A program made the position numbers and the translations under genes. This document shows positions 4,174-22,923 of a stretch of 26,445 bases of DNA, in pieces (position 1 is the stretch's first letter; the number at the start of each line of letters is the position of its first letter). Origin of the DNA: a virus; the IMG/VR virus record IMGVR_UViG_3300005613_002292, positions 1 to 26,445 of that record. One strand, 5' to 3'. The notes below the pieces were generated by a model. It was not told the origin of the DNA, made no database searches, and saw nothing but the letters and a program-made list of their open reading frames with translations.

Positions 4174-4724
4174 TTTAATCTCCAAATAAGGTATTCATCT
4201 TTTTTAATAATAGAACCACATTGCCTACAATAATAAAACTCTCCACCTGGCATACCGTCTGGATATTCAATTAATGGTCCAAGAGTAGTATTCTTTCTCT
4301 TAAAATCAAGTCTCCTTCCACAAATTAAACAAAAATGTTCATGTTCAAGACCAAACTTTTTATAAGGAAAATAAAACTCTCCTTTACCTAGTTTTTGATA
4401 ATACTCGTCCTTTATTATTTTACCAGTGCCTTTGCCAACCGGTTTTAAAACTGGCACAGTTTTTTGTTTAATAAACTTATATGCTGTCAATCTATGCCAG
4501 CCATCTTTTATATAACCCTCTTCATCCACAATAAGTGGCGGTAAAACAACATCATTTAAAAGCAATTCAATATAAACATTGAGTTTTCTATCAGTAATAG
4601 TTTTGCCAATTTTTTTACCCATAGAAATATCAACCTTTTTAGTAGGCCATTCAACAATCTCCCAATTCTTATTCTGACCATCGCACACTTTTATTATTTT
4701 TGCTAAGTTTGGATAGTATTCCAT
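4170..4724 (-). CDS. ParB/sulfiredoxin-fold protein with C-terminal zinc ribbon
   Basis: This is a 184-aa protein with two parts. Residues about 20-100 carry IKDGWHRLTAYKFI (72-85), the DGxHR signature of the ParB/sulfiredoxin superfamily, whose members include DNA-binding partition proteins, nucleases and free-serine kinases. Residues about 132-175 hold two CxxC pairs (CLICG and CRQCG) that should bind zinc. The combination suggests binding of DNA, RNA or a nucleotide ligand, but the exact activity cannot be read from sequence. It sits inside a run of glycosyltransferases and overlaps its neighbours by 22 and 4 bp. A role as a small kinase or transferase supplying the glycan pathway is as possible as a regulatory role. 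Confidence 0.7.
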   Translation of the reverse strand: MEYYPNLAKIIKVCDGQNKNWEIVEWPTKKVDISMGKKIGKTITDRKLNVYIELLLNDVVLPPLIVDEEGYIKDGWHRLTAYKFIKQKTVPVLKPVGKGTGKIIKDEYYQKLGKGEFYFPYKKFGLEHEHFCLICGRRLDFKRKNTTLGPLIEYPDGMPGGEFYYCRQCGSIIKKDEYLIWRLK

Positions 4725-6081: not shown

Positions 6082-6880
6082 TTATTCCTTTTAACACTGC
6101 TTTTAAGTAACAATCGGCAGTATAATTTTTTAATATAAACTCTCTTGGTGTCAAACCAGACTCCTTATATTCTTTAATATAGCTATAAGTTTTTCTGTTT
6201 CTTACTGGCTCTAAAACTTCGGGTAGTATATTACAACTCATCGCTTCTAAAACCGTTCTTTCTGAACCATGAATCGCAGGAATGATAACTTTTTCAGCCC
6301 TTCTGTAATAATCCCTTATTTTTTCTACTGGGAAATATCCTGTTTCTATATTTACACCAGTTTTTTTACAGGCTTCTAATTCTTCTTTTCCGTCTGGTTG
6401 AACCGTGCCGACACAAGTCAATCTGTTGCCTAAATAGGCAATATTAGACTGTAGTTTCCAATTGCTAAAAGTAGCAGGATAAAAGTATTCAATGTCTTTT
6501 TTAACCTTTTTAGGAGTAAAAAACTCAGCATCGGTTCCAAATGCTTTAATTGCTCTAACACCCAGCCTTCTAACCGCCTCATAGACAGGCGTTGATTCAC
6601 AAAACACCACATCAAAGCCTTTTAAATTATCAGGGTCATCAGGAGTTGTAGTTAAAAACAGTCCTCTTTTAGCATTATAAGTTGATTTCATTCTTGAAAA
6701 ATTGCTGTAGCTACCAGACCAAGCTAAAATCCAATCATATTCCTTTTTAGGTGTTTCAAATAACAACCAATCTACATTATGTATTTTCTCTAGTTTCTCT
6801 ATACAAGCCCTCAACCCATCACGCCATAAAGGCATAATCTCTTTTGCTTTATCCCACTCCCAAATAAGCGCAATATTCAT
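6074..6880 (-). CDS. GT-B fold (GT4-like) glycosyltransferase
   Basis: This 268-aa protein (ATG at 6880, not the GTG at 6895) has a GT-B pattern: an N-terminal domain ending in CESTPVYEAVRRLG, and a C-terminal donor domain with AIHGSERTVLEAMSCNILPEV (about 205-225), the usual glutamate-rich donor loop of GT4-type enzymes. It is short for the family, which normally has 350-400 residues, so the N-terminal domain is reduced. The chosen start makes an ATGA overlap with the previous stop and has AAGGG just upstream. No membrane helix is seen. Its place in the glycan operon supports a sugar-transfer role; the donor is unknown. Confidence 0.75.
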   Translation of the reverse strand: MNIALIWEWDKAKEIMPLWRDGLRACIEKLEKIHNVDWLLFETPKKEYDWILAWSGSYSNFSRMKSTYNAKRGLFLTTTPDDPDNLKGFDVVFCESTPVYEAVRRLGVRAIKAFGTDAEFFTPKKVKKDIEYFYPATFSNWKLQSNIAYLGNRLTCVGTVQPDGKEELEACKKTGVNIETGYFPVEKIRDYYRRAEKVIIPAIHGSERTVLEAMSCNILPEVLEPVRNRKTYSYIKEYKESGLTPREFILKNYTADCYLKAVLKGING

Positions 6881-7593
6881 AATAACCCTTTCCACTTTTC
6901 AGGTATATTTTCCTTTTCATTCATTCCAATTTGAAAATGCGCTTTGTCTTTTTTAAATCTACCTCTATTACAAAATAAATTCCAGTCAACTTTTTGTAAA
7001 TGCACCATAATTAAGTCTGGATCAGCTATTGACTTAAGATATTCTCCTATTCCTAGTTCAACTTTACTAGCTCTTCCCGCGTCTTCTTCTACATAATGAT
7101 AACCTTCTACATAATTAAGCGGTGCTTTAGAAATAGCAGGCTTGAAATAAGAAGGATGCGGCCACCAAATCTTTCTTTGAGATAAAATAGGTTTTTCCCA
7201 GTCTATTCCTCTTTCACCTTTTAATTGTAAAACCTCTCTACCGGTACAATAAACAGTCTCCTTGTCCATTTTAGTAATATAGTCATCTAAACTCTTATAC
7301 TTTTCAGGATTAACAATAATAAACTCATCAGCTTCAGCAAATATTACAACGTCATAGTCTTGTAAAAGTTTTCTTTGATATTGTTTGCCAGTCTCCTTCA
7401 TAAAAGTTTTACCATAATGACTATTATCATCTAAATAAAACTCGGTAAAATTAAAGTTCTTTTTGGCTCTTTCTACACTTCCATCAGTAGATTTATGATT
7501 GATAACAAAAAGATCAAATTGACTATAATGTTTTAACCACAGAGGTAAAAACACACTTTCATTTTTAACAACCGTAAAGACTGCTGTTCTCAT
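6877..7593 (-). CDS. Glycosyltransferase of the Glyco_tranf_2_4/GT92-like type
   Basis: This is a 238-aa protein. The start, FTVVKNESVFLPLWLKHY (6-23), followed by INHKSTDGS and IFAEADEF (84-91), is the pattern of the PF13704-like glycosyltransferases, with EAD as the metal-binding acidic motif. It is a clear paralogue of the gene at 9010-9753: both share WWPH, K-AISK-P, GYHY/GFHY and ADPDLIMVH. I moved the start to ATG 7593, which has GGAG upstream and an ATGA overlap, in place of GTG 7611. There are no membrane helices. Its close pairing with the GT75-like gene suggests linked steps in one glycan. Confidence 0.8.
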   Translation of the reverse strand: MRTAVFTVVKNESVFLPLWLKHYSQFDLFVINHKSTDGSVERAKKNFNFTEFYLDDNSHYGKTFMKETGKQYQRKLLQDYDVVIFAEADEFIIVNPEKYKSLDDYITKMDKETVYCTGREVLQLKGERGIDWEKPILSQRKIWWPHPSYFKPAISKAPLNYVEGYHYVEEDAGRASKVELGIGEYLKSIADPDLIMVHLQKVDWNLFCNRGRFKKDKAHFQIGMNEKENIPEKWKGLL

Positions 7594-8453
7594 TTCATAA
7601 ACTCCTTCCACCGTTCTAACTTTTTATGATAAACCTTAAAATACCTATCTGTATCTTCACCTTTCCAATATTCTTCATTTAATCTAATACCCTTAGCTTC
7701 CTTTTCAAGATTGTTAAACACATTACTGGCTTTCTCATGATAAGCAGCAGCAAAACCAGAAACTACAGCCCAACCACGCTTGTCTATCTCCCTCTTAGAG
7801 TTTATGCCACAAAAAATATCATCAAATCGGTGAACATTATAAACTCTAGGCGCCATATACATAAAAGGCAACATTTTCCTTTTAAAAGCTAAATTCATAC
7901 TAGACATAGGATAATAAACTCCTTTAGGAATAGGCTCTTTATAAAACTTAATGTTAACGTTTCCTTTAACCAACTGAGTAGGAGCATCATAATCAGCTAT
8001 ACCTCCCCAAATTCCATGTGATAATACCACCTCAGCCTCATTTCTAACCCCATAAGGAAAACCCCTTGTATATTCTGTTCCTGTCCTTGTCCAACTAATA
8101 GGCACTCTCATATTAAGAGCGTTAACATGATCTTGAACAGTATCTCCGATCGGTTTTAAATCATCATCTAAAGTAATAATATATTCAACCTCTGGACACT
8201 GCTTGGCAATATAAGCAAAACCCAAGTTCCTAACAGCAGCGGTAAGATTAGTAATTAAATCATTGTATTTACCCATTACCTGCTTGACCGACAATCTTTT
8301 ATCGTCACAAGTCTTTAAAACAGGCTCTTTACCATCATAAACAATAAAAACCCGACAGTTAAAATTCCAGTCTTTTAAAAACTGCCCTATCTTTTTAGGT
8401 CTTATTGTCGGAATAACGACAGCACAAGTTTTATCCTTTATTTTTTCTTGCAT
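7590..8453 (-). CDS. GT75-like protein (UDP-arabinopyranose mutase / RGP family)
   Basis: This 287-aa protein matches the plant reversibly glycosylated polypeptide family along its whole length. Visible landmarks are AVVIPTIRP (11-19), TLDDD (94-98, metal site), RGFPYGVRNE (130-139), IADYDAPTQLVK (152-163), YPMSSMNLAFKR (181-192), RFDD (209-212), and HEKASNVFNNLEKEAKGI (239-256). Family members interconvert UDP-L-arabinopyranose and UDP-L-arabinofuranose and glycosylate themselves reversibly on an arginine in the region matching 130-137. The inferred role is supplying a furanose donor, or using a related sugar, for the neighbouring transferases. It overlaps its neighbours by 16 and 4 bp. Family placement is strong; substrate is not proven. 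Confidence 0.85.
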   Translation of the reverse strand: MQEKIKDKTCAVVIPTIRPKKIGQFLKDWNFNCRVFIVYDGKEPVLKTCDDKRLSVKQVMGKYNDLITNLTAAVRNLGFAYIAKQCPEVEYIITLDDDLKPIGDTVQDHVNALNMRVPISWTRTGTEYTRGFPYGVRNEAEVVLSHGIWGGIADYDAPTQLVKGNVNIKFYKEPIPKGVYYPMSSMNLAFKRKMLPFMYMAPRVYNVHRFDDIFCGINSKREIDKRGWAVVSGFAAAYHEKASNVFNNLEKEAKGIRLNEEYWKGEDTDRYFKVYHKKLERWKEFMK

Positions 8454-9013
8454 ATTTGAAACATACTTTCTGTTCCTTCTTCGTTGATATAGTTTGTTCT
8501 TTCACTAAACAGATATCTTAAAGCATAAACAGCTGGCTTGACATAATGTTTTTCAGCATGATAATAATCATGAAACAAAATGTAGTTACCAACTCTCACT
8601 TCTGGCACCCAAGCGGCAATATCTTTTCTTACTGACAACTCTTGATGATCACCATCAATAATTAGCAAATCAATTGGTTCGTGCCATGTTCTACTACCTT
8701 CAACAGAATCAACATGATGCAAATGCCAATTTTTAATACCTTCCATATTTTTAAGACATTCTTTTTTCGCAGCCTCTCCCCTGATTATACCGTCATCCTT
8801 ATATTCATAATGAGAAATATAAGAATCAAATGAATGTATTTGACTTTTAGGTGAAGACAAACAAAGCATCTTGCTTGATCTTCCCATATAAGAGCCAATT
8901 TCTACAATTGTTCCGTTCACTTTAGAGGCATAATCATACAATACTTCACAATCACACTCAGGCATCCAGCCCCTTATATGCTTTACTTGATTAAATACTT
9001 CTTTAAATGTCAA
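8438..9013 (-). CDS. Class I SAM methyltransferase (Methyltransf_24-like)
   Basis: This is a 191-aa protein with the SAM-binding motif GTIVEIGSYMGRSS (34-47), an acidic strand end HSFDSY, and LLIIDGDHQELSVRKD about residues 115-130 (motif with metal or substrate contact), then GNYILFHDY. This order is that of the Methyltransf_24 family, which often methylates sugars or small hydroxylated groups. The TTG start at 9013 is supported by AAGGAGG four bases upstream and by a TTGA overlap with the previous stop. Its location between two transferases suggests O-methylation of a sugar in the phage glycan. Substrate is inferred only. Confidence 0.8.
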   Translation of the reverse strand: MTFKEVFNQVKHIRGWMPECDCEVLYDYASKVNGTIVEIGSYMGRSSKMLCLSSPKSQIHSFDSYISHYEYKDDGIIRGEAAKKECLKNMEGIKNWHLHHVDSVEGSRTWHEPIDLLIIDGDHQELSVRKDIAAWVPEVRVGNYILFHDYYHAEKHYVKPAVYALRYLFSERTNYINEEGTESMFQICKKK

Positions 9014-9753
9014 AAAACCTCCTTATATTTTAACGGGATTAAGGAACATTTTCCTTTCCGTTTACTAACAAATTTATAAAAAGGAGTGTCTGCACCCTCC
9101 CTTTTTGTTTTTAATCTTTCAAACTCTTCAGCATCTATAAATCTTGTATGCACCATAATTAAATCTGGATCAGCTATTTTTTGTATATAGTCCTTTATGC
9201 CAAGTTCACACTTTGCGGCTTTAGCAATAAAACTTTTAGGATAATGAAAGCCCCAAACAAACTTTTGTGGCACTTTTGAAATTGCTGTTTTATAATGAGC
9301 GCTATGCGGCCACCAATGCTTCCTTTGTTTCATCCACGGTTTATTCCATTCCATAGCTAGTTCGTCTTTATGCTGTATAATTTCTTTACCAGAACAAGTA
9401 ACTTCTTTCCTTTTTACTTTTTTAACATAATCCTCAAAATCTTTATACTTGTCTGGATTTGCAATAATAAACTCGTCTAAATCAGTATAAACTACATAAT
9501 CATACTTTTTTAACAGTCTTTTCTGCTGTTCTTGTATTGCATTCACACATAAATCGTGATAATCACCAGTCCCCACAACACCAAGTTCTTTTAATTTAAT
9601 TTCTTCAAATTTATATCCATAAGTAGGTAAATCTTTTTGTTTATCACTCAAATTAACCACATAAACATCAAAATTAAATTGACAATAATACTTTAACCAA
9701 TGTTTAAACCAAAAGTTATAATTTCTAACATAAACCAAACAAGCTATTTTCAT
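9010..9753 (-). CDS. Glycosyltransferase, paralogue of the 6877-7593 gene
   Basis: This is a 247-aa protein starting MKIACLVYVRNYNFWFKHWL, with YVVYTDLDEF (86-95) as the acidic metal motif. It shares long stretches with its paralogue at 6877-7593 (DEFII-NP-KYK, WWPH, AISK-P, ADPDLIMVH), so one arose from the other by duplication. The N-terminal VKNE motif of the paralogue is VRNY here, a change at a usually conserved place. I chose ATG 9753 because it overlaps the previous stop as ATGA; the earlier in-frame ATG at 9780 would overlap the upstream gene more. It is soluble. The pair flanks a methyltransferase and the GT75-like gene, hinting at a four-gene functional unit. Confidence 0.78.
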   Translation of the reverse strand: MKIACLVYVRNYNFWFKHWLKYYCQFNFDVYVVNLSDKQKDLPTYGYKFEEIKLKELGVVGTGDYHDLCVNAIQEQQKRLLKKYDYVVYTDLDEFIIANPDKYKDFEDYVKKVKRKEVTCSGKEIIQHKDELAMEWNKPWMKQRKHWWPHSAHYKTAISKVPQKFVWGFHYPKSFIAKAAKCELGIKDYIQKIADPDLIMVHTRFIDAEEFERLKTKREGADTPFYKFVSKRKGKCSLIPLKYKEVF

Positions 9754-10349
9754 ATTACTATTAAGCCAAATCCTGACCAATGAAGGTCTGGTAATGATAA
9801 TTTAGGATATTTAATTTCATCCCATGCTTTAATCATCCCATCATTAAGTCTAATATCATCTATTAATATAATTGTTCCTTTTTTAAAGTATTGATCATAT
9901 AATTTTAGTTCAGTATGTAACTGGGTGTAGTTATGATCTGTATCAAAAAACCACAAATCAGTCTTTTCAAGCTGGCAATCTTTAGGCCATGTTGCTAAAT
10001 CAAGATCATTTCCTCTTATTAGCGTTAGATTAGGATAATCTTGCTTAATAAATCTAAATTCTTCTTCAGGTTCAGGAATAGAACAAGCGTAAAGCATTGA
10101 ATTTTCAGGTAAGGTTGATAACATCATTAAAGCTGAAGCGCCACCAGCAGACCCAAGCTCTACGACTTGTTTTGGTTTAATTGCCTTTACAAGTGCGGCT
10201 AAATAACGATAATACCTTGATGTAGAAACATTATTAATATCATTAAGACTACCTTGATTGACATGTTTAAGATAAGGTTGAATCTTTTTCATGTCCAACT
10301 TAACTAGTTTGTCTCTAGCTAATTTGTCTATCTCTTTAGGTGTTACCAT
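9750..10349 (-). CDS. Class I SAM methyltransferase
   Basis: This 199-aa protein has QVVELGSAGGASALMML (60-76) as the SAM-binding loop and LWFFDTDHNYTQLHTEL near 130-146, the pattern seen in Methyltransf_24 and cephalosporin-hydroxylase-like methyltransferases. GTIILIDDI follows, the expected strand after the catalytic region. The N-terminal 55 residues are helical and may bind the substrate. It overlaps the small zinc-finger gene by 7 bp and the next transferase by 4 bp. Sugar O-methylation is the likeliest role given the neighbours, but protein or nucleic acid substrates are not excluded. Confidence 0.78.
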   Translation of the reverse strand: MVTPKEIDKLARDKLVKLDMKKIQPYLKHVNQGSLNDINNVSTSRYYRYLAALVKAIKPKQVVELGSAGGASALMMLSTLPENSMLYACSIPEPEEEFRFIKQDYPNLTLIRGNDLDLATWPKDCQLEKTDLWFFDTDHNYTQLHTELKLYDQYFKKGTIILIDDIRLNDGMIKAWDEIKYPKLSLPDLHWSGFGLIVI

Positions 10350-10522
10350 TTTTTGATTCGTTCAGAACTAGGCATTTTTCCCGTTACTGGATCTCTATGG
10401 CGTTGTTGATATTCGTAATTAGCATTACAAATCTTACTATGACAAACTTTAGGCTTTCTTTTTGGATTCCAATAAGGAATATCTTTACCGCACATAATAC
10501 ATTTGGTATGTAAAACCTTCAT
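10343..10522 (-). CDS. Small zinc-finger protein
   Basis: This is a 59-aa basic protein with CIMC at residues 8-11 and CHSKIC further on, giving four cysteines and a histidine that could hold one zinc ion. The start is ATG 10522, which has a strong AAAGGAGG site five bases ahead; the longer in-frame version would begin inside the previous gene. It lies 2 bases after the preceding stop. The conserved fold looks like small phage zinc fingers that bind nucleic acid, but no partner can be named. It is the only clearly non-enzymatic small gene in the middle of the glycan island. Confidence 0.7.
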   Translation of the reverse strand: MKVLHTKCIMCGKDIPYWNPKRKPKVCHSKICNANYEYQQRHRDPVTGKMPSSERIKKW

Positions 10523-10524
10523 TT

Positions 10525-11304
10525 TTACCTCCTTTGGTAAGAAAAACAAACTAAACCATCTTTACTAAAAAGGTCTCCTATTTTATAATCTTTTAAAAGC
10601 TCCTTGATTGTTTCTTTTGTAAACACTCTTATATGTCCTCTCGGTAGTTTGCCATCCCATTCCCAACCGCCCTCAATATTTCCCATACCATTACCATAGG
10701 GACCATCTGGAGTGGTAACATAAACCCATCCCTTAGGTTTAACCATCTTAGCCATATGGTCTATAAAATCCTTTGGATCAACTACTACATGTTCAAATAC
10801 TTCCATACAGGAAACAAAATCAACCTTTTCCTTTGGCATAAAAGTCGTTATATCTTCTTGAACAAACTTAGCTTTAACACCCAACTCTTCAGCTCTTTGT
10901 CTTGCTACTTTAAGAGCGCCATTGGTCATTTCAACTCCAGTGGCTTTTATTCCACATTTACTAGCATAAATAACTATACTGCCAACATAACAGCCAAGAT
11001 CAATCATAGATTTAGATTTATATTTTTCTAAACCATCAACAATCCACTGATAACGAGCATATCTAATACCTGGATTAAGTGCTATAGCAGCTGGTTCAAT
11101 ATTTTCGCAGTCGTCAGCAGGAACATCAAGTAGCTTCTCTAACCACTTTGGCTCAAAAACATGACGAACTATACCGTAAGTATTTTTTCGTTCTTCGTCT
11201 AAATCTAAATCCTTAAAATGTTCTAGTAGTTTCCACGCCTTAAGTGGTTCATCTTTGATTACTAATTCTTTTCTAATTATTTTAATAGCTGATTTTATGT
11301 CCAT
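10525..11304 (-). CDS. Class I SAM methyltransferase (Methyltransf_11/23-like)
   Basis: This 259-aa protein carries SMIDLGCYVGSIVIYASKCG (SAM loop, about 99-118), GVEMTNGALKVARQRA with an acidic ribose-binding Glu, FVQEDITTF and SCMEVFEHV, followed by PKGWVYVTTPDG. This is the standard motif order of Methyltransf_11/23 enzymes. An N-terminal 90-residue helical region precedes the core. It overlaps the split GT4 gene by 23 bp. Such enzymes within glycan clusters often methylate a terminal sugar and so cap a chain; that role is inferred from context here. Confidence 0.8.
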   Translation of the reverse strand: MDIKSAIKIIRKELVIKDEPLKAWKLLEHFKDLDLDEERKNTYGIVRHVFEPKWLEKLLDVPADDCENIEPAAIALNPGIRYARYQWIVDGLEKYKSKSMIDLGCYVGSIVIYASKCGIKATGVEMTNGALKVARQRAEELGVKAKFVQEDITTFMPKEKVDFVSCMEVFEHVVVDPKDFIDHMAKMVKPKGWVYVTTPDGPYGNGMGNIEGGWEWDGKLPRGHIRVFTKETIKELLKDYKIGDLFSKDGLVCFSYQRR

Positions 11305-12010
11305 ATTTCTTTTGCATTTGAACCGGTAATAATTTAGCCAATGACTTATCTTTTTTTAATAATACATCCATTGCTTCTTTTAAATCGTCTTGTTTAAATT
11401 CATTAGACCACTTCTCCGCCACTTTTCTCCACCCAAAGGTATCCTTGCCCCACTTCATCATTGGTTTTCTAATTTCTTCTTGTCTTTTGTGATCTTTTAA
11501 AAGATTAATCAACTGCTTTTTATATTCTTCCTTTACTTCTGGTTCATAAATGTCGCCTTCAATTTTAATTCCATGTTGAACTGTAGTTTTTAAAGCAGCA
11601 TAGTTAACACAAACGGGAATAGCCCCCCATGCTTGAGCCTTCATGGCGCTTATACAGCTTATTTCTCCAAAGTGTGTAGGATAAGTCCATAAACCACATT
11701 TTTTATACCACTTCTCAATCTCTGGTTGTGAAACACGCCCATGATGAGTAATACCATCTGCTTTCATCATTTTGTCCATTTTCTCCTTCCACGCCATTGA
11801 GGCTGGATTATTAGCGTAAAAACGAACAAATAACTGCCAGCCATAGAAAATATGAAGCTCCGCTTGTGGAACTGCCTTTTTAACATCAGGCCACATTTTC
11901 AACAAATGCTCCAAGCCACGATCGTACGAACTACAGTACAAACACCAATAGGGATTACGCTTTCCCAAGTTTTTTTTGCCAATATTTTTTGTTATAATTT
12001 GTTTTTCCAT
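11282..12010 (-). CDS. GT4 donor-domain half of a split glycosyltransferase
   Basis: This is a 242-aa protein. From about residue 18 it matches the C-terminal Rossmann domain of GT4 enzymes: YCSSYDRGLEHLLKMWPDVK (25-44), ELHIFYGW, HHGRVSQPEIEKWY and THFGEISCISAMKAQAWGA. The second glutamate of the usual E-x7-E motif (E116) is Lys124. The N-terminal acceptor domain is absent and is found instead at the end of the next gene upstream (12204-14042). The two parts would join at the GT-B hinge. The first 16 codons overlap the HNH reading frame in another frame, so they may not be ancestral. ATG 12010 has only a weak AAGAAG site. It may work as a two-chain enzyme or be inactive. Confidence 0.8.
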   Translation of the reverse strand: MEKQIITKNIGKKNLGKRNPYWCLYCSSYDRGLEHLLKMWPDVKKAVPQAELHIFYGWQLFVRFYANNPASMAWKEKMDKMMKADGITHHGRVSQPEIEKWYKKCGLWTYPTHFGEISCISAMKAQAWGAIPVCVNYAALKTTVQHGIKIEGDIYEPEVKEEYKKQLINLLKDHKRQEEIRKPMMKWGKDTFGWRKVAEKWSNEFKQDDLKEAMDVLLKKDKSLAKLLPVQMQKKYGHKISY

Positions 12011-12200
12011 GACACTTCTTACATAGACTAATTAAATTTTTAGGATCAATATTTTTTTTATCATAATCAATATGATGGCAAGATAGCTTGCAACCTAATT
12101 CTTTTTCTGTTTTGCCACAAATTTGACAAGTATAATTGTCTCTTTTCCTTATCTGTCTTTTTAACTGTCCATTGAAATCTTTTGTATATGGCTCGGTTGT
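11955..12200 (-). pseudogene. HNH endonuclease domain without start codon, inserted in a GT4 gene
   Basis: An 81-codon open frame directly follows two stop codons (TGA TAA) that end the upstream glycosyltransferase. It reads TTEPYTKDFNGQLKRQIRKR, then DNYTCQICGKTE, SCHHIDYDKKN and NLISLCKKCHGKTNYN. This is a complete HNH core: two CxxC zinc pairs, the catalytic His in HHIDY, the Asn and the final CH. There is no ATG, GTG or TTG in the frame. It is in the same frame as the upstream gene but separated by the stops. The usual N-terminal DNA-recognition part of homing HNH enzymes is missing. I read it as the decayed remainder of a homing-type endonuclease; stop read-through or a non-standard start cannot be excluded. 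Confidence 0.75.
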
Positions 12201-12203
12201 TTA

Positions 12204-14042
12204 TCATAAATCAACTCCATTACCTGTAATCATTATTTTATCATCAGGTATATCGGGCAAGTTTTCTCTATGCCACTGACTTAAAACCATAATTTTAGTA
12301 ATTTTATCTAATCGTTCTTTGGTATAGTCTAGCTGATTTTGAATGTCGTGGCACCAAATGTAAATCTTTTTAGCATTATAATTTCCGTCAACAAAATTAG
12401 GCTGTCTCCAAGCTATTACAATATTAAAAGTGTCTTTAGCGTTAAACTTAAAATAAGGTTTGTATGTAACTCCGTCATATTCCCCTTCATCTGCTCCTGG
12501 ATCAGCATAGACAGTAACCTTCCAACCTATTTTAGCCAATTCCTTACTCATGTAAATAACTGCTTCCTCACTTCCACCTATAAAGGATTGTCCTGGCTTA
12601 TCTAAAGACTTAGGCGACCATGGGGTATAACTAAATCCACAAACAATAGCAATTTCATTTTCTCCCCATATTCTCGGCGGAATAACCCTTTTGCTAAGCT
12701 CTGACATAAAAGGATTGTTAACAATTAAATTAGGCAATGAAAGCAATAATGGTTTTAGTTTCTCCTTTTGTCCTGATTGTTCTAAATGTTGAGATAAACT
12801 TATTACACTTTTAGTTAACTTCTTTTGAAGAACCAAATTGTTAGTAAACTTTACTCTCTCAGCCATAGATTTATTATTAGGTAAAAGCTCTTTAAGTTTT
12901 TGAGAAGCCGCCCACGCCTCATCAATTTTACCAGTGTGAATAGAAGCATGAAAAATAATCTCTAAAGCTCTTGCCATTAAATCACGGGGATTACTTACTA
13001 ACGTTGAACGGGGACTTTTGATTTTAGAAGCTAATTTAACCCAGTGTAATGCTCTTTCCCATTCCTTTTTAACCAGATAAGACATAGCTAGATTAAGATA
13101 AGCACCAGGAAACCTGTCATCCTCTATTAAAGAATTATGACCGCATTTTATAGCATTGTTTGTTTCTCCAAAAGCACGATAAATCTCTACTAAATATTCC
13201 CAGCATTGTGCCCGTTCTTCTGCCCATCCCGACTGATTCTCGCCACTTACATAAGCCAAAAACAATGTTTTAGCTGATTTTAAAAACTCCTTATTCTTAG
13301 TAGTCAACCAAACGTCAAAATGAGCTTTACCTAAATAATAAATAGGACGAGGGTCTTTGCCTTTTGTTTCATAAAGACTTAACTCCAAGTTTTTAATATT
13401 TCTTAATAATGCCTTTTTTGACCTTTTTGAATTAGATAAATGAAGAACATCACACCAATCATTTTCCCCTTTCTTTGTAGGTTTTTGTTCGATTAAGGTT
13501 TCATGAATACAAGCTATCCACTTATGAACGCCCGTATTTCTAATTATCCTTTCTCTCAAATGTTCAATCAAAATATTTCTAACTTTGTTATTAACAATCT
13601 CCGCCTGATAAATGTAATTCATGAAAACACTATCTAATTTATTTGCTTCTGCCCATTTAATAATTTCCCTTAACCTATTACCTCTGAAAATATCATCAAC
13701 ATCTAACCATATCATCCATTCAAATTCCTTTGGTGTTTGAGCTAAATTATGATTTCTCGCTTTATCAAATAAGAAGATTTTGTCACCAACTTCTATCTCT
13801 GGATTTAAACCAAACTTTTTTAACCACTTAATATGTTTCTTTTTAATAATTTTAAAAAACTTTTTAGGTTCATAATCAACTACAGCACCATATTTTTCAG
13901 CCACTGCTTTTAAGTTGTTATTAGTTGGAGTTGTAATGGTAATAAACATTCCGTCCACTTGCCCATAAATAGAATTTAAAACTCTATTAAGTATTTTTGG
14001 GTCTTCATGCCCCGCCACAATCATGTTTAAAGCGATTTTCAT
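12204..14042 (-). CDS. GT2-TPR-GT4 glycosyltransferase, truncated in its GT4 domain
   Basis: This is a 612-aa protein with three parts. Residues 1-220 are a GT-A domain with WLDVDD (112-117) as metal site. Residues about 230-390 form helical TPR-like repeats. Residues about 463-612 are the N-terminal half of a GT4 GT-B domain, with FIGGSEEAVIYMSKELAK (487-504), VTVYADPG, IYIWCHD and ITGNGVDL at the very end. A normal GT4 continues after NGVDL into the donor domain, but here two stops occur and an HNH domain follows; the missing half is encoded at 11282-12010. The GT2 part looks intact. ATG 14042 overlaps the previous stop as ATGA. It probably built two linkages of one glycan before the split. 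Confidence 0.85.
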   Translation of the reverse strand: MKIALNMIVAGHEDPKILNRVLNSIYGQVDGMFITITTPTNNNLKAVAEKYGAVVDYEPKKFFKIIKKKHIKWLKKFGLNPEIEVGDKIFLFDKARNHNLAQTPKEFEWMIWLDVDDIFRGNRLREIIKWAEANKLDSVFMNYIYQAEIVNNKVRNILIEHLRERIIRNTGVHKWIACIHETLIEQKPTKKGENDWCDVLHLSNSKRSKKALLRNIKNLELSLYETKGKDPRPIYYLGKAHFDVWLTTKNKEFLKSAKTLFLAYVSGENQSGWAEERAQCWEYLVEIYRAFGETNNAIKCGHNSLIEDDRFPGAYLNLAMSYLVKKEWERALHWVKLASKIKSPRSTLVSNPRDLMARALEIIFHASIHTGKIDEAWAASQKLKELLPNNKSMAERVKFTNNLVLQKKLTKSVISLSQHLEQSGQKEKLKPLLLSLPNLIVNNPFMSELSKRVIPPRIWGENEIAIVCGFSYTPWSPKSLDKPGQSFIGGSEEAVIYMSKELAKIGWKVTVYADPGADEGEYDGVTYKPYFKFNAKDTFNIVIAWRQPNFVDGNYNAKKIYIWCHDIQNQLDYTKERLDKITKIMVLSQWHRENLPDIPDDKIMITGNGVDL

Positions 14043-14546: not shown

Positions 14547-15485
14547 TTATCCCCCCGTTGCATAGCCAGAACGTCTTGCTGAAGACCTTTCTGCTAAATA
14601 CTCCAAAGTAACCTCGCCAATAATGTGACCATTTTCACGATCTCCATCTTTAGAAAGTCTTTCCCTCTTTGGAGGTCTCAAATAAGCAAGCTTCCACTTG
14701 TCTTCTTTAATACCAATTATCTGAGGGCCTGGAGTAGTTGATGCACTAGGAACGTCCTTGTGAGCAAAAAGTTTGTGAACACCTCCATCAGACTCGTAAA
14801 CCTCGACTGGTCTAGTAAGTCTTTTATCAGTAGCATCCACGTACTTTGTCGAGCCAGCTGTAAAAGTAGAAATCTTTTGCTTCAATCCGAACGTAGTCAA
14901 AACTGTATCAAACACATCTGAATGACCAACATCATCCCATACATCTTTAACCATGTTATTAAACTCGGTTTCAGATAATGAACTTCCAGAATTCCTATTA
15001 GTATAGTGGCTTGTAATGACGGACTTAAGTCCTGCCATTGTTCTTGCAACACCAGACGAACCAGAGGCTAAGGCTCCCTGAACAATATCATACTCAAGCT
15101 GATTTTTCCACTCTCGGAGTGCTTTACTAGCTTGATAATCCAATGGATCGCCCATGCCTGCATGGTCAACGTCCCTTTCCGTGCCAGAAACCCTATATGT
15201 CTGCTCGATAATTTCACACCAATTATGTCGTCTTACAGGTTGAGTTAAGTCGCTATAAGTAGCGGCTGCACCTTCGACTGAAGTTGACTGACTGGTTTTA
15301 CGAGAAATATAGTCTTCTAGCCATTCGTGGTGAACTTGTTTTGCTGTGCCTCTACCAAGCATAGTTGCTAAAGGATTGTCGTCTGGACTTACATCAGTAA
15401 TAATATCCAATAAATCCTCTCGCATTGCTTGATCGCTGTCCGTAGAGCCAGCAGAATCCACCCATGTTGCTAATCCGTATGCCAT
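14547..15485 (-). CDS. Major capsid protein, SU10 type
   Basis: This is a 312-aa protein whose layout matches the SU10-type major capsid family (DUF5309, HK97 fold). It has DVSPDDNPLATMLGRGTAKQ near 31-50, HHEWLEDYI, an SVEGAAA block, and the VSGTERDVDHAGMGDPLDYQ region followed by ALREWKNQLEYDI. It would form the shell of the icosahedral or prolate head. Start ATG 15485 has AGGGGGTG upstream. It follows the scaffold gene by 21 bp, as usual. Family membership implies a tailed phage, and SU10 itself is a podovirus, but the tail type here is not proven by this gene. Confidence 0.92.
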   Translation of the reverse strand: MAYGLATWVDSAGSTDSDQAMREDLLDIITDVSPDDNPLATMLGRGTAKQVHHEWLEDYISRKTSQSTSVEGAAATYSDLTQPVRRHNWCEIIEQTYRVSGTERDVDHAGMGDPLDYQASKALREWKNQLEYDIVQGALASGSSGVARTMAGLKSVITSHYTNRNSGSSLSETEFNNMVKDVWDDVGHSDVFDTVLTTFGLKQKISTFTAGSTKYVDATDKRLTRPVEVYESDGGVHKLFAHKDVPSASTTPGPQIIGIKEDKWKLAYLRPPKRERLSKDGDRENGHIIGEVTLEYLAERSSARRSGYATGG

Positions 15486-16827: not shown

Positions 16828-17133
16828 TTATTGGCCAATTTTAAACTTAATATCTTCTTTGCTATATTTCTTTTTATTCAAAGCCTTTAATGTTTGCTCT
16901 TGCTGTTCTATAAACTGCAATATCTCAACTATAACCTTTTTAAACATACTAGCAGTTATAGCTGCATAATTAAACTCTCTTTCTGTTTTAAATTGTGTTG
17001 GGTCGGGAAATGTTTGGTCTCGCTTGACTTCCAACCACGGGCCTAGCACCTTGAGCCATCCCTCTGATTGGGACATTTCCTTGACCTGGCCTGCCTGCTT
17101 GCGGGCCAGTTCCTCCTGTTTGGTTAATTTCAT
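16828..17133 (-). CDS. Small helical protein overlapping the portal gene
   Basis: This is a 101-aa, mainly helical protein. Its ATG at 17133 has AGGAGG a few bases upstream, and its first 48 codons lie inside the 3' end of the portal gene in another frame (146-bp overlap). The last part, VIVEILQFIEQQEQTLKALN (67-86), looks like a coiled-coil or helical pair. The overlap zone has clearly higher G+C than the genes around it. Function is unknown; genes at this place may act in head assembly. The strong ribosome site and 53 further codons past the portal stop support it as a real gene. Confidence 0.72.
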   Translation of the reverse strand: MKLTKQEELARKQAGQVKEMSQSEGWLKVLGPWLEVKRDQTFPDPTQFKTEREFNYAAITASMFKKVIVEILQFIEQQEQTLKALNKKKYSKEDIKFKIGQ

Positions 17134-19033
17134 ATTCCTCCTCTACTTTTTCAAAATACTTTTCAGCATCTTTTAATCCTGCATCCTCAAATGAATCTTC
17201 TAAAAGCTCTTTCATTTTAATTTTTGTGCCTTCTTGTGCTAATAAAGTTATTGTATTCGGGTCTCTTGCCAATTCAAGTAATTGCCTTTTCATTATGCCC
17301 TCTTGCTGATCAGTTGGCAACTCCATAGATTCTACATCTGGAATAAAATCATAATTACCCGATAAATCTTCTGGTGTAAGAATTAAATGTCCAACTTCGT
17401 CCCCATCCTCCATTTCAAGTTTTGGTTTAATCCCATCATCTGTTTTAATTGGAAACTGAGGATAACCAAAGCCTTGAATGTCAATTTTAGCCCCATTCTC
17501 CATAGCATCTGCCATTTTCTTTGCCTGCTCATCACTAACTGTGTAATTATCTAATCCCCTGTTCTGAAAGTATCTAATCGCTTCTCTACCCACTATTCTA
17601 ACAACCTTCTGTTGTTCTCTCGGATCACTAAACAGAAACTGTTTATTCATTGCGTGCCAAAACATCATTTGCTTTTTAATTGCTTCTTTTAAGAAAAGTT
17701 GATTAAATTTATCTCTAGCATTCTTTTGAGTTTCGCTTGCTCTAATTTCTGTAGCTGTTTTATCCTGCTGTCCTGGCACCATACCTGAAGTTTGAGCCGA
17801 TGTCTCACCAACCGCCTCTTGTAAAGAACCAACTAAGAATCTATAAGTTGAGGCAAATTCTGAAACACCTTTTATACTAGCTTCATGAGGAATTACATCT
17901 GTCGCTGGATCGTTCATTATCCATTTCTTTCCTGGACCAAATTCTAAAGTATGCATTTGAACCCCAGTTGATCTAATCTTTAATGGTGTGTATAAACTCA
18001 TGTTGACTGAATCCAAATATTGACAAATCAAAGCATTGATAGCTCTTTGTATTCTCTCAACTGGCTCAACTTCTGAAAGTCCATAAAGATCATCATCAAT
18101 CGGATAATACTTAAGCATAACCACTGGAATTTGCTGATGATCATAAGGATTGGGAATGTCTCTTAAAACAATACCGTGCTTAGGGGCAAAAGTAATCCAC
18201 CTATCATTTCTATATTCCGTTATCACCTCTATTGTTTTATATACTTCGTCCCGACCTAAAAAGTCTTGAAGTCCTTTAAGTGATTTATTCTTAAGCATAT
18301 AGTTAGATTGTCTTGTATCTCCAGCTTTTTTATTTTCTTTCTTTGAAGCGTCTCTCAAAATATCAAGGTTCTTGTAAATTGGCTTGCCTCTAGCAATGTC
18401 ATTAACTCTTCTCAATTCATCAAAAGTTACATATTCCCTATACTGAAACCAGTTTTTGATTGTAGAATAAGAAGGATTAGCCAATACATCTCTTGGAGAT
18501 AAAACTTTAAAGTCATTGCCATCATAAAAGGGAACTGATTTAACTTTACCTTTTTCCTTTTTAAATCCCCTGTCATATCTATATTTACACAAAGCAAAAG
18601 CCGCACCATATTTTCTAGTAATTGTATCCATCATTGCCCATTTAGCCAGCATTGCCATAGCGTCAACTCTTTCGTTCTCATCCCACTGAAACATTAATAA
18701 CTCATTGTTAATTCTAGCACCTAAAGCATCTCCACCTTCTCTTGGCACCATCCTACCTTTTAGTTTATTAGCAAGAAGTCTTGATGTCTTTTCAAATATA
18801 AAGGTAAAAACACGAGGATCAAATACTACTGAACTATAAGGCCAGTCTGAAGTATCAATGTGGGAACGGAAAAGCTCATCAACTTTGTCCATTTTGGGCC
18901 TGCGAACATCCAAGTCGTCCTCTGCCATTTGTTTATGGCGCATAACGTCAACGAAGGTTATTTTTTCTTGACTTGTTCCTTTAACAGAAAGTGTTTCTAG
19001 CGGATGTTTTGCCATAATAAAAGAACTGCTCAT
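16988..19033 (-). CDS. Portal protein
   Basis: This 681-aa protein has the size and composition of P22/SU10-like portal proteins. It forms the twelve-subunit ring at one vertex through which DNA enters and leaves. Visible family-like stretches are DVLANPSYSTIKNWFQYREY, NPYDHQQIPVVMLKYYPID and SEVEPVERIQRAINALICQYLDSVN, followed by the QEAVGETSAQTSGMVPGQQ and KTATEIRASE region that is common in these portals. The C-terminus (about 635-681) is Gly/Pro/Arg-rich and disordered and is overprinted by the next gene. ATG 19033 has AGGAG upstream. A consensus promoter lies about 75-100 bases ahead. Confidence 0.9.
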   Translation of the reverse strand: MSSSFIMAKHPLETLSVKGTSQEKITFVDVMRHKQMAEDDLDVRRPKMDKVDELFRSHIDTSDWPYSSVVFDPRVFTFIFEKTSRLLANKLKGRMVPREGGDALGARINNELLMFQWDENERVDAMAMLAKWAMMDTITRKYGAAFALCKYRYDRGFKKEKGKVKSVPFYDGNDFKVLSPRDVLANPSYSTIKNWFQYREYVTFDELRRVNDIARGKPIYKNLDILRDASKKENKKAGDTRQSNYMLKNKSLKGLQDFLGRDEVYKTIEVITEYRNDRWITFAPKHGIVLRDIPNPYDHQQIPVVMLKYYPIDDDLYGLSEVEPVERIQRAINALICQYLDSVNMSLYTPLKIRSTGVQMHTLEFGPGKKWIMNDPATDVIPHEASIKGVSEFASTYRFLVGSLQEAVGETSAQTSGMVPGQQDKTATEIRASETQKNARDKFNQLFLKEAIKKQMMFWHAMNKQFLFSDPREQQKVVRIVGREAIRYFQNRGLDNYTVSDEQAKKMADAMENGAKIDIQGFGYPQFPIKTDDGIKPKLEMEDGDEVGHLILTPEDLSGNYDFIPDVESMELPTDQQEGIMKRQLLELARDPNTITLLAQEGTKIKMKELLEDSFEDAGLKDAEKYFEKVEEEYEINQTGGTGPQAGRPGQGNVPIRGMAQGARPVVGSQARPNISRPNTI

Positions 19034-19149: not shown

Positions 19150-19926
19150 TTATTTCCAGACAACTATTTCTAACTCCAGATTAGTTTTATCCTGTATCCT
19201 TTTTACTAATGTCAATACTTCTTTTGAAGTTGCCCCGCCAGTATTTAAAATAAAAGAGGGAAACATTGGAGAAACTACTGCTCGACCCTCCCATTCTCCA
19301 ACCATTTTCGCTTTTCTAATTATGTCATTTCCACCCCAACTCCCCTTAAACCAACAGCCAGCTGAAGGAAAAGAAGGATAGTCCCTTTTACGCTTCTCCT
19401 GTATTCTGTTATAAAGCTCTATCAAGTTTTTGGCGGGTTTCATTTGAAAAATAGCACTAAGAACAATCCAATCATGAAAAGCGCTTGTTCTATGTCCAAA
19501 ACCGCATTCCTCTTTGGTAAACAATTTTACTTTCTTTGTTTTCCGATTAAGAGCTTTAACACTAATTAGATAATCTGAAATTGTGCCAAGAGACGCACCT
19601 GCGTTCATAATTATAGCCCCACCGATAGTCCCTGGTATTCCCGACACGTGGACAAGTCCTTTTAAACCCTTCTTAGCGGTTATCAAACCCGCTTTCTTTA
19701 ACAAGAAGCCCGCACCTACTACTAACCTTGTTCCAGTGAGTTTAAAATCGTTCAACTCAATTTTTATAACTTTATCAACTCCCCTATCAGAAACTAAAAT
19801 ATTAGTCCCAGCTCCCAAGATATAACCATTTAAATCTATTGCCATTAAGTCTTTTAAAGACTTGATAATGTGAAATCGTTTAGCAGGACCCCCTATTTTA
19901 TAACTTGTCCGATTTTTTAATTCCAT
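19150..19926 (-). CDS. murB: MurB-like UDP-N-acetylenolpyruvoylglucosamine reductase
   Basis: MurB uses FAD and NADPH to make UDP-N-acetylmuramate, the second committed step of peptidoglycan synthesis, in the cytosol. This 258-aa protein shows SYKIGGPA (8-15), YILGAGTNILVSDRG (35-49), VSGIPGTIGGAIIMNAGA (94-111), GHRTSAF (144-150), PSAGCWFKG (187-195) and a final LELEIVVWK. Thus both FAD segments, the arginine (146) and the terminal Glu are present. The catalytic Ser of the E. coli enzyme is replaced by Cys191; I cannot say whether this lowers activity. It is short compared with the usual 300 aa but complete. It overlaps the pyruvyl transferase gene by 29 bp, and its place between terL and portal is unusual. 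Confidence 0.88.
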   Translation of the reverse strand: MELKNRTSYKIGGPAKRFHIIKSLKDLMAIDLNGYILGAGTNILVSDRGVDKVIKIELNDFKLTGTRLVVGAGFLLKKAGLITAKKGLKGLVHVSGIPGTIGGAIIMNAGASLGTISDYLISVKALNRKTKKVKLFTKEECGFGHRTSAFHDWIVLSAIFQMKPAKNLIELYNRIQEKRKRDYPSFPSAGCWFKGSWGGNDIIRKAKMVGEWEGRAVVSPMFPSFILNTGGATSKEVLTLVKRIQDKTNLELEIVVWK

Positions 19927-20947
19927 TAATTATTAATTGATAAACCATTTCTGCTTTTCTTCGGACGCTCGGAATAGTCTTCTCCAATCCTTTTCTGATT
20001 TCCTTTTTATTCTTCCAAACCTTAACAGCTTGTTTAAATATTTCTTCAGCAGTCGGCATTAAAAGCATTTCTTTATAAGGATAATCAATCATTTCTAACA
20101 ATCCTGGCATTTTAAATCCTATGTCTGGTGTCATTGCCACAAATGGAGTACAAGCAGAAGCAGAATAAACTATCCCGTGATATCTATCTGACACTAAAAT
20201 TCCATCTTTAAGAATATCAATTAGTTGTCCAGCATCAGGTCTATCATCAACAACAAATGATTTATGATTCATCATCTTTGCTATTTCTCTAGCTTGCACT
20301 CTATCATCACGACTACCATGACCAATAGGAATAAACACAACAGGTCCCATTGTTTCTACTGCCATATCAGCAAATCTTGCTACTTCTTTTAAGTTATTAG
20401 CAAGATAACCCCTAATACCTATTTTAACTGCATTTTGTGGAAGAGCTTTAAATGGTTTAGGCTTAACAGTAAAAACACCATCAGGAAGTAATTTAATATG
20501 GTCCCCTTTAGCACCTATATCTTCAGTGATTAATTTATATGAATCTTTCTCTCTAGCAACAACTAAATTTGCTTTATTTAATACAATCTTGCCTAACTCC
20601 TTAGTTTTGTCGCTTAGATTACCTATAAAAGTCTGAGAACCAAAGAAAGTCAATTTACCAAGAGATTGAGCAATCCTAAAATAATTAAAATGATTAATCA
20701 TATCGTCCCCATTCATATAGCCACCACCTTGACTGATCACTACATTTGATTCTTCTAGTGCTTTAGATGACAACAATGGCATTACTTTTACATAATCAAG
20801 CTGTTCTAAATCCCATCTTTCGGTTTTCTGCGAACAAATAGTGAAAGTAGCAGAAAAAGCTTCTTTTAAGTGATTCATCATACTTTTCCAAATTGCCACA
20901 TCTCCTGTGTTGCCTGTCTGCCAACAATGAGTGAATAAGATTTTCAT
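19898..20947 (-). CDS. Polysaccharide pyruvyl transferase (CsaB-like)
   Basis: This is a 349-aa protein of the PS_pyruv_trans family, which adds a pyruvate ketal from phosphoenolpyruvate to sugars of cell-wall or exopolysaccharides. Motifs are GNTGDVAI near the start, VVISQGGGYMNGDD (about 70-83), LVVAREKDSY, LLPDGVF and ILVSDRYHGIVYSASACTPFVA, where the His lies in the donor site. ATG 20947 was chosen because GGAGG lies 7 bases ahead and it overlaps the previous stop as ATGA; the ATG at 20953 is too close to that site. In CsaB systems the product anchors S-layer proteins. Beside MurB it suggests the phage alters a host surface polymer. Confidence 0.87.
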   Translation of the reverse strand: MKILFTHCWQTGNTGDVAIWKSMMNHLKEAFSATFTICSQKTERWDLEQLDYVKVMPLLSSKALEESNVVISQGGGYMNGDDMINHFNYFRIAQSLGKLTFFGSQTFIGNLSDKTKELGKIVLNKANLVVAREKDSYKLITEDIGAKGDHIKLLPDGVFTVKPKPFKALPQNAVKIGIRGYLANNLKEVARFADMAVETMGPVVFIPIGHGSRDDRVQAREIAKMMNHKSFVVDDRPDAGQLIDILKDGILVSDRYHGIVYSASACTPFVAMTPDIGFKMPGLLEMIDYPYKEMLLMPTAEEIFKQAVKVWKNKKEIRKGLEKTIPSVRRKAEMVYQLIINGIKKSDKL

Positions 20948-21228
20948 TTCCATACCTCCCTAATCATAAAAGACTTAATGTTTACATTGTCTGTTTCTTC
21001 TGATTTAATTTGAGTTACATTATTATTTTGGACAAATGTTCTTATCGTGCCATAACCTGTCCCAAGTCCAATATTGCCCAACGCTCTAATATATCTAGGA
21101 ATGATAAGTGGATTAACTCCTGTTTCTGCTAGTGCTACTTTAATCATATACAATTCAGGGTCTAACTTCCTAATAACGTTCCAGTAAGTTTCTAAGTTTG
21201 CTTTTTCTACTGTTGGTAATGATTTCAT
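20944..21228 (-). CDS. Small unknown protein after large terminase
   Basis: This is a 94-aa protein with a helical N-terminus and a PLIIPRYIRALGNIGLGTGYGT segment (40-61), ending in a charged tail. It overlaps terL and the pyruvyl transferase gene by 4 bp each, so it is probably co-translated. I do not recognise the family. Small genes in this place may aid DNA packaging or regulate late genes, but nothing in the sequence decides that. Confidence 0.7.
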   Translation of the reverse strand: MKSLPTVEKANLETYWNVIRKLDPELYMIKVALAETGVNPLIIPRYIRALGNIGLGTGYGTIRTFVQNNNVTQIKSEETDNVNIKSFMIREVWK

Positions 21229-22535
21229 AAACCTATGCGAAAACTTTTCTTGCCAGTTGTGCCAAATCTATACTGATCTGGCGGCATTTTGTTACTACTT
21301 ATCTTTTTGTAACTAACAGCAAAATATCCTAAGGCGTCTACAGCATGATCGTTAGCTTTCTCTGGTATATCAGGTTCATTTAAATCTTGTGCTTGTGTAA
21401 CCGCCTTCTCTTTCCAACGATAAGTCTCAAACTCTGCTATTGTGTTGACACAATTCTTAAATACAAACAGACTAGGATTACCCTCATTTGAAACATTTTG
21501 AACAAAATGACCAGGGATAACTTTAAGTCTTTCTGCTATCTTCTCAATTCTCAATCTAATCCAACTTTGTTGTTGTGTGCCAGTTTCTCTAGTGGCTGGA
21601 GTTATGAAAATGCCTCTATCGGCAAACTCTTTAATCCATTGCGCTCCGCTTGGATCACCATAACTATTAATTACATTTTCAGAACGAGGATTAGCATTAA
21701 TTACTCCAGCATGATAATTGATAATCTTACCAGATTCATAATGTTCATCAACAATAAACCAATTATCATCAGAATCAACCACAATCCATAAACACACAGT
21801 TGGATTAGTGGACCCAAAATCAAAACAACGGTAAACATCACCTGATATTTCAATTGGTTCAATTACATGTATATCTCTATCAAATCTCTTAAAGACTAAT
21901 CCGGTAAACTTCCTAAAGTCTGCTAAGTATTCTTGAGCAAAAGTATCTTTTGTTAATGACTTTTTTGCTTCGTCTATTTCTCCTTTTGGTAAAACAGGAT
22001 TTTCATAGCTTGTAAAACGCCACGACTTATACAGTCCAGGCTTTTGGCCTAATTTATAAAGGTCGTAAAAATGATTAAATCCTTTTGGTGTTGAAATGAA
22101 AATAGCAGGGGCTTCGTAATCTGTTAAAGTAGGTCTTAACACTTCGGACCACAACCAATTCCAATTCCTAATACTTGCAATTTCGTCAATAACTAATCCC
22201 CTTAACTTAACTCCTCTTAAATTATCAGGATTCTCTGCTCCTTTGAGTTCAATAATACTTCCATTAGTAAGTTCAATAGATAAATAAGGCCTGCCAATAA
22301 TCTTTCTAATCCATTTATTAGGTATCTCTCTTCTTATATCTCTCCAATGAATCATTTCAGACTGTTTATAAGTAGGGGAAACAATCCAATATAATCCTTG
22401 CTGTTTTAATGCCCATCCCAATACAGTCATTCGGCTTAAAACTGATTTACCTGCTCGTCTACCAGCACAGACAACTTTAAACCGATGATTATCCCTTTTT
22501 ACTTGGCTCTGCCACTTCGATAGTTTGACCCTCAT
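21225..22535 (-). CDS. terL: Large terminase subunit
   Basis: This is a 436-aa packaging motor. The N-terminal ATPase has Walker A GRRAGKS (25-31), Walker B LVIDE (114-118) and the coupling motif FISTPKG (146-152). The C-terminal RNase H-like nuclease has DFGSTNP (239-245), YGDPSG (292-297) and NDHAVDALGY (396-405), giving the usual metal-binding aspartates D239, D294 and D400 or so. It docks on the portal, cuts the concatemer and drives DNA in with ATP. ATG 22535 overlaps terS by 47 bp, which is more than usual but leaves the N-terminus complete. No motif is missing. Confidence 0.95.
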   Translation of the reverse strand: MRVKLSKWQSQVKRDNHRFKVVCAGRRAGKSVLSRMTVLGWALKQQGLYWIVSPTYKQSEMIHWRDIRREIPNKWIRKIIGRPYLSIELTNGSIIELKGAENPDNLRGVKLRGLVIDEIASIRNWNWLWSEVLRPTLTDYEAPAIFISTPKGFNHFYDLYKLGQKPGLYKSWRFTSYENPVLPKGEIDEAKKSLTKDTFAQEYLADFRKFTGLVFKRFDRDIHVIEPIEISGDVYRCFDFGSTNPTVCLWIVVDSDDNWFIVDEHYESGKIINYHAGVINANPRSENVINSYGDPSGAQWIKEFADRGIFITPATRETGTQQQSWIRLRIEKIAERLKVIPGHFVQNVSNEGNPSLFVFKNCVNTIAEFETYRWKEKAVTQAQDLNEPDIPEKANDHAVDALGYFAVSYKKISSNKMPPDQYRFGTTGKKSFRIGL

Positions 22536-22923
22536 TGTCTAAATATTCTAACTTCATATCATTAATATTAATTTGAGTTAAATGAGATGGAGTATCTTTC
22601 ATTCCATGATTGACTTTAAGTAAAAATATAGCCATTGCTTGATTAATTTCTTTACCACCATACATCCCATCATTCATTAATTGATTCTTCTGTCTATCAA
22701 CTAATTTTTTTATTGATGCGGAAAACTTTGGATATTTCTTAGTCCATTCCTTTATAGTTTCACTGATTACACCAATGTATTCGGCTAAACCCTCTATTGT
22801 TGGTAATGCCATATTCTCTCTACCACACATTGACATATACTCTTCTATTTTCGCAAACACTTCAGGATTATACTTAGTTGGTCTGCCACCTTTTTTATGA
22901 GGTCTTGTTAATTTTTTGGTCAT
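22489..22923 (-). CDS. terS: Small terminase subunit
   Basis: This is a 144-aa protein with the pattern of the phage DNA-packaging gp3-like small terminases: KKGGRPTKYNPEVF (10-23), LPTIEGLAEYIGVISETIKEW (a helix-turn-helix, about 40-60), a middle helix with KKLVDRQKNQL, and MAIFLLKVNHGMKD (97-110). It recognises the packaging start in the concatemer and regulates the large subunit. ATG 22923 begins inside the end of a small 43-aa gene. The order terS-terL is as expected. Confidence 0.9.
   Translation of the reverse strand: MTKKLTRPHKKGGRPTKYNPEVFAKIEEYMSMCGRENMALPTIEGLAEYIGVISETIKEWTKKYPKFSASIKKLVDRQKNQLMNDGMYGGKEINQAMAIFLLKVNHGMKDTPSHLTQININDMKLEYLDNEGQTIEVAEPSKKG

Follow-up and report, generated by a model that had tools for sequence, protein, structure and literature searches.

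A Phage Gene Pair for a Pyruvyl Transferase and a MurB-like Flavoprotein as a Candidate Lactyl-Ether Module

A viral DNA record of 26,445 bases from IMG/VR (the window) carries overlapping genes for a polysaccharide pyruvyl transferase (PVT, PF04230) and a MurB-like FAD reductase among its packaging genes. By analogy with known enzymes, we consider it probable that the two proteins constitute a two-enzyme module that places enolpyruvate from phosphoenolpyruvate (PEP) on a sugar hydroxyl of a glycan specified by the phage and then converts this group by reduction into a 1-carboxyethyl (lactyl) ether. We also lean toward a broader proposal in which PF04230 PVTs, combined with any one of three unrelated flavoproteins (MurB-like, FrhB-like, or nitroreductase), serve generally, and independently of peptidoglycan, to form the lactyl ethers on surface sugars of bacteria and archaea. 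Tailed phages would have acquired the modules with a MurB-like or an FrhB-like reductase and would use them to modify glycans of their own. Lactyl ethers on O-antigens and capsules have been known for decades, and the pairing of PVT with a flavoprotein is a directly testable enzyme candidate for their formation.

The gene pair in the window and in related phages

As a preliminary description of this DNA had stated, both genes lie between those for the large terminase subunit (terL) and the portal protein and are tightly overlapped (Table 1), with intact ORFs that share 29 nt. The PVT ORF includes a further in-frame ATG at 20947, which is the end coordinate used in that description. The PVT matches the Pfam family PS_pyruv_trans (E = 2e-25; 90.7 bits versus a gathering cutoff of 25.3), and the MurB-like protein passes the Pfam cutoffs for both FAD_binding_4 (E = 8.1e-10; 39.0 versus 26.4 bits) and MurB_C (E = 3.5e-10; 40.4 versus 27 bits). 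PHROGs provides a family for neither gene. The small ORF that separates the PVT gene from terL overlaps the former by 10 nt and the latter by 4 nt.

Table 1. Features of the window that are relevant to the gene pair
Feature	Coordinates	Strand	Basis or content
Glycan island	3439..14042	-	Several glycosyltransferase ORFs, RGP (UDP-arabinopyranose-mutase-like) gene, methyltransferase genes
Major capsid protein, SU10 type	14547..15485	-	Domain/family match
Portal protein, SU10-like	16988..19033	-	Domain/family match
MurB-like FAD reductase, 258 aa	19150..19926	-	Intact ORF and Pfam domains
PVT (PF04230), 351 aa, GNTGDVAIW type	19898..20953	-	Intact ORF and Pfam
94-aa ORF between terL and PVT, function unassigned	20944..21228	-	Conserved in L002 and L005
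Terminase large subunit (terL)	21225..22535	-	Domain/family match
Terminase small subunit (GP3_package)	22489..22923	-	Domain/family match

The glycan island, at about 10.6 kb, occupies 40% of the contig and is flanked by tail-fibre-like genes and the capsid gene. Elsewhere in the window, positions 24856-25069 hold about 36 copies of a hexamer (consensus AGCCAG, 82% matches), through which several reading frames stay open on both strands, and a low-complexity stretch (GRGCGRGRG) at the start of the related contig L002 resembles this array. Two neighbouring ORFs with HIT domains, an unusual phage cargo, lie close to the contig end (25437-26422).

An assembly chimera or bacterial contamination could in principle have placed host genes into a phage contig, a concern that the preliminary description had named as a ground for discarding its reading, and MurB is indeed a common bacterial gene. 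A scan of base composition across the window did not find a break, and the genes overlap on a single strand. Moreover, a strict pattern search of a genome collection with the motif of the phage MurB-like protein recovered no cellular member of exactly this subfamily; a similarly strict genome-wide search for the phage PVT likewise gave none of its own subfamily. The decisive observation is an independent contig, IMGVR_UViG_3300031227_004701 (L002), in which the order is terS, terL, 94-aa ORF, PVT, MurB-like gene, an additional ORF, and portal. Identity to the window is 77% for the PVT, 74% for the MurB-like protein, 84% for the portal protein, and 93% for the capsid protein. Because the same gene order recurs at 74-77% identity for the pair, the window arrangement is not a chimera, and we give this explanation virtually no weight. 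The additional ORF of L002 (L002:7532-8374), which is absent from the window, encodes several paired cysteines, has no Pfam match, and is perhaps a mobile endonuclease.

The pair is a trait of a sub-lineage, since five contigs related by terL (L008-L012) lack it and instead have, after terL, no more than one small ORF and a distant portal. Other phages with the same pair, which the preliminary description had proposed to look for, are represented by the sister contig L002 and also by an unrelated phage, IMGVR_UViG_3300001533_001058 (L006). The latter differs from the window in its terminase (PF04466), portal (PF04860), and capsid (PF05065) families, and carries glycosyltransferase (GT) genes and the pair in the order GT-GT-PVT-MurB-like-GT immediately after the portal gene. 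Identity to the window is about 43% for the PVT and 44-47% for the MurB-like protein. Thus, the PVT adjoins one flavin reductase in the window, in L002, and in L006, and the recurrence in an unrelated phage shows that the pairing is more than chance.

A further contig (L005) shares with the window the 94-aa ORF (77% identity), the PVT (67%), and the portal protein (78%), and the ORF that follows its PVT gene, in the slot occupied by MurB in the window, encodes an FrhB_FdhB flavoprotein. At this position, therefore, the PVT is retained although the reductase belongs to a different family. The same contig has a different and apparently frame-split terminase-like gene (L005:1073-2531), as if terL had been exchanged and the cargo kept.

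The phage MurB motif was found in viral contigs only in L002 and L006 besides the window, and a second viral motif search yielded four more contigs, all of which were devoid of homologues. The phage PVT gave zero matches against 50,697 phage records, and hence no annotated phage among them carries the pair. Matches to the MurB-like protein in the phage collection reach 22-35% identity and come mostly from unannotated faecal contigs.

Pairs of PVT and flavoprotein genes in cellular loci

Plasmid-borne pairs in glycan loci were collected by a tblastn search of plasmids and by reading of the annotations. In Paracoccus aestuarii pAES7, the PVT and the MurB-like protein are fused into a single protein of 845 aa. 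The pair lies between glycosyltransferase and flippase genes in Natrinema pellirubrum, a member of the haloarchaea, which are not known to make peptidoglycan. It is also present in a glycan locus of Cetobacterium and in Novosphingobium, where the two genes overlap by 4 nt, and in Levilactobacillus brevis the two genes are separated by one flippase gene. As a separate observation, a MurB-like gene on the conjugative plasmid pBCJ2315 of Burkholderia cenocepacia (L023:7127-8840) lies beside a carbamoyltransferase gene, outside a wall cluster.

To count neighbours from the PVT side, a single search was made with the Cetobacterium PVT as the query, and 16 plasmid loci were inspected, excluding the query itself. 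A flavoprotein reductase is located within about 3 kb of the PVT gene in 11 of these 16 loci, where the counts are small and plasmid-derived: three are MurB-like (all already known from the MurB search), five are FrhB proteins, and three are nitroreductases. Two kinds occur together in none of the 16, and the PVT and reductase genes are separated by another gene in four of the 11 loci that have a reductase. One of the FrhB loci, in Marinibacterium, encodes a PVT-FrhB fusion, which makes two independent natural fusions when the PVT-MurB-like protein of P. aestuarii is included. A PVT-FrhB pair is also present on pSymB of Sinorhizobium meliloti. Because three unrelated flavoprotein families interchange beside the PVT, and because both fusions exist, a single reaction that follows the PVT step appears to be open to different flavin reductases. 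The FrhB family includes BciB, which is a vinyl reductase.

The remaining 5 of the 16 loci have none of the three reductase families nearby. These loci fit ketal-forming PVTs, and the presence of a PVT gene is by itself not enough to indicate the module. They also lend some support to an alternative in which the product of the phage PVT is an ordinary pyruvate ketal and the MurB-like protein has an unconnected function, the two being mere neighbours in a cargo region. Ketals are the products of those PF04230 enzymes whose products are known, and the phage PVT shares its invariant residues with the ketal-forming WcaK. Nevertheless, phages that are not related to each other carry the pair, as do plasmid loci from several bacterial phyla and from an archaeon, and a fusion protein combines both parts. 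Three unrelated flavoproteins also interchange beside the PVT, and no such flavoprotein reductase is found in the colanic acid locus, where WcaK forms a ketal. We therefore regard the ketal alternative as unlikely and continue to favor a lactyl-ether module.

Residues and family membership of the two proteins

Arg134, Asp158, and His259 of the phage PVT are invariant in all 15 PVTs compared, including WcaK. The protein is predicted (pLDDT 85.7) to adopt a GT-B-like fold, and the model matches sugar enzymes of GT-B fold; a solved pyruvyl transferase is absent among the structure matches listed for the model, which says nothing about family membership. Against the CsaB equivalog TIGR03609 (ketal pyruvyl transferase), the protein scores 70.3, which is below the cutoff of 213.1. 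Its sequence is of the GNTGDVAIW type, and most of the cellular module partners belong to another PF04230 subfamily. Because of this difference in subfamily (GNTGD in the phage), the chemistry proposed for the phage enzyme is carried over by analogy.

For the MurB-like protein, sequence alignment places Arg146, Cys191, and Glu253 at the positions of the catalytic residues Arg159, Ser229, and Glu325 of Escherichia coli MurB, and the protein has the motif FPSAGCxFKGxWGG...SPxFPSFILN. In a comparison of 13 sequences, the catalytic Arg and Glu are present throughout, whereas Ser, Cys, or Thr occurs at position 229. The preliminary description had correctly located Cys191 at the catalytic Ser position, but the residue is not special: Cys occurs naturally at position 229 in the solved Thermus MurB 2gqt (SAGCAFKNP), and a special catalytic change at Cys191 was accordingly rejected. 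An AlphaFold2 model built from three sequences was too poor for site inspection (pLDDT 41).

The contacts on the nucleotide side of the substrate are altered. Those made by MurB to the diphosphate include Asn233 and residue 288 (residue roles in PMC12844806), the latter being Gln288 (PMC10058398). All three phage MurB-like proteins have Gly in place of Asn233, Phe at 288, and Val at the position of Lys275, and the ligands for the substrate diphosphate that would mark a MurB are thus not present in the phage protein. Asn233 is variable among true MurBs as well, whereas His or Gln at 288 is constant in the canonical MurBs compared, with His in the true type II MurBs of the set. Most pair-type proteins have neither His nor Gln at 288, and the Paracoccus fusion has Gln. 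Retained catalytic residues together with altered nucleotide-side contacts are compatible with the MurB reaction being carried out with a different acceptor.

Comparison with the NCBIfam MurB equivalog models also sets the phage proteins apart from canonical MurBs. The window protein falls below every cutoff (175.9 versus 259, 123.7 versus 224, and 120.4 versus 144.5), as do the MurB-like proteins of L002 and L006. Five separate pair-type proteins, from the phages, Natrinema, Cetobacterium, and Novosphingobium, are under all of the cutoffs, and the L. brevis protein passes one model. As controls, the canonical MurBs of Paenibacillus, Stenotrophomonas, and E. coli pass. In a small tree, the pair-type proteins are separate from canonical MurBs with moderate support.

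These data bear on the possibility that the MurB-like protein functions as a genuine MurB in peptidoglycan and sustains host wall synthesis during infection while the PVT modifies another polymer. Its MurB_C and FAD domains, the retention of catalytic Arg, Cys, and Glu, and the fact that its best solved relatives are MurBs (about 1e-31) are what would be expected of such an enzyme. Yet it misses all equivalog cutoffs that three canonical MurBs pass, its diphosphate ligands are replaced, the same kind of pair resides in a haloarchaeal glycan locus, and an unrelated FrhB protein takes its place in L005. We consider this explanation very improbable, and the proposal in the preliminary description that MurB keeps wall synthesis going is not upheld. 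Production of MurNAc for the wall was likewise rejected on the basis of the archaeal pair and the FrhB replacement, and peptidoglycan synthesis by the pair is unlikely. The conserved pairing of a PVT with a flavoprotein suggests that MurB-like enzymes have roles beyond peptidoglycan, one of them in an archaeon. Annotation pipelines currently name such proteins ‘murB’ or ‘FAD-binding protein’.

Lactyl-ether polysaccharides, proposed route, and comparison with known systems

The O-antigen locus of E. coli O124/O164 has the order wzx-FrhB-PVT-GT. We take the O124/O164 O-antigens to be of the lactyl-ether type, and O124 presumably shares a lactyl-glucose antigen with Shigella dysenteriae type 3. 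The sugar 4-O-[(R)-1-carboxyethyl]-glucose has been described from S. dysenteriae (PMC10609480). The O124/O164 PVT is annotated in two pieces in strain TUM18780 (L043:7148-8283) and in two other strains, and as one gene in two further strains.

Klebsiella capsules offer a second point of contact, and we take K66 to be of the lactyl type. According to one survey, K8, K22, K37, and K66 have pyruvyl transferase genes and capsules that are not pyruvylated, and 79 Klebsiella loci include 35 pyruvyl transferases and only two nitroreductases and one F420-type gene (PMC4616057). In the K22 capsule the lactyl ether is 4-O-[(S)-1-carboxyethyl]-glucuronic acid, as stated in the title of a reference cited in PMC3857182, and the same source gives K37 the same cps genes and structure except for acetylation. 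We infer that the two nitroreductases and the F420-type gene are those of K22, K37, and K66. The module would explain the presence of pyruvyl transferase genes without pyruvate in K22 and K37. An enzyme assignment for lactyl ethers was not found in the open-access papers searched, and we do not claim priority.

In the proposed first step, the PVT would take PEP and a sugar hydroxyl in the manner of known pyruvyl transferases. Ketal formation involves attack of a sugar hydroxyl on C2 of PEP and departure of phosphate. Without ring closure by a second hydroxyl, proton loss would release an enolpyruvyl ether, so that a protein of a different scaffold would arrive at the outcome of MurA. Using FAD and NAD(P)H, the MurB-like flavoprotein would then reduce the enolpyruvyl double bond to yield the lactyl ether, in the same way as MurB acts in the peptidoglycan pathway. 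The assignment of both genes to enolpyruvyl or pyruvyl sugars in the preliminary description holds, and its ‘muramate-like or pyruvylated sugar’ product comes close to a lactyl ether on a glycan.

A different order of steps has also been considered, in which the PVT closes a ketal first and the flavoprotein opens it reductively to give the same product. Known PF04230 products are ketals, and lactylated mannose occurs in one O-antigen while otherwise similar repeats carry a 4,6-pyruvate ketal on mannose (PMC8466920). The same pair of structures fits one pathway that operates with or without a reductase. MurB, however, acts on the enolpyruvyl C=C rather than on a ketal, and the phage protein keeps the catalytic residues for that reaction. 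Ketal opening is consequently quite improbable in our estimation, and reduction of an enolpyruvyl ether is retained as the second step.

The acceptor would probably be a sugar of a glycan made by the phage's own glycosyltransferases rather than UDP-GlcNAc, with the glycan island as its likely source. Because the genes overlap within a run encoding virion parts, the likely product is a glycan of the virion or of the host surface that would be synthesized in the late phase of infection. The island and the position of the pair among virion genes also suggest a glycan of this kind, and we slightly favor the virion over the host surface. An acidic sugar decoration would thereby be added to the phage-encoded repertoire.

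The closest precedent for this two-step logic is MurA/MurB, where enolpyruvyl transfer followed by flavin reduction produces the lactyl ether of muramic acid. The phage reductase is a homologue of MurB in which the catalytic residues are retained, whereas the first enzyme is a PF04230 protein rather than MurA. In addition, the reductase lies outside the MurB equivalog models, lacks the diphosphate ligands, and is encoded in glycan or phage loci. With WcaK and CsaB, the phage PVT has in common the PF04230 domain, the invariant Arg, Asp, and His, and the predicted GT-B-like fold, but it is partnered with a flavoprotein reductase and scores below the CsaB equivalog cutoff (70.3 versus 213.1). PVT genes beside or fused with those for FrhB or nitroreductase flavoproteins in capsule, O-antigen, and EPS loci (E. 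coli O124/O164, K. aerogenes p35_D, Bacteroides, and S. meliloti pSymB) share the combination of a PVT with a flavin reductase, and differ from the window in that the window reductase is MurB-like and the pair sits inside a phage packaging module. Finally, phages with glycosyltransferases that modify virions or host sugars resemble the window in its large glycosyltransferase island beside virion genes; what sets the window apart is its PVT, which is unmatched in the 50,697 phage records.
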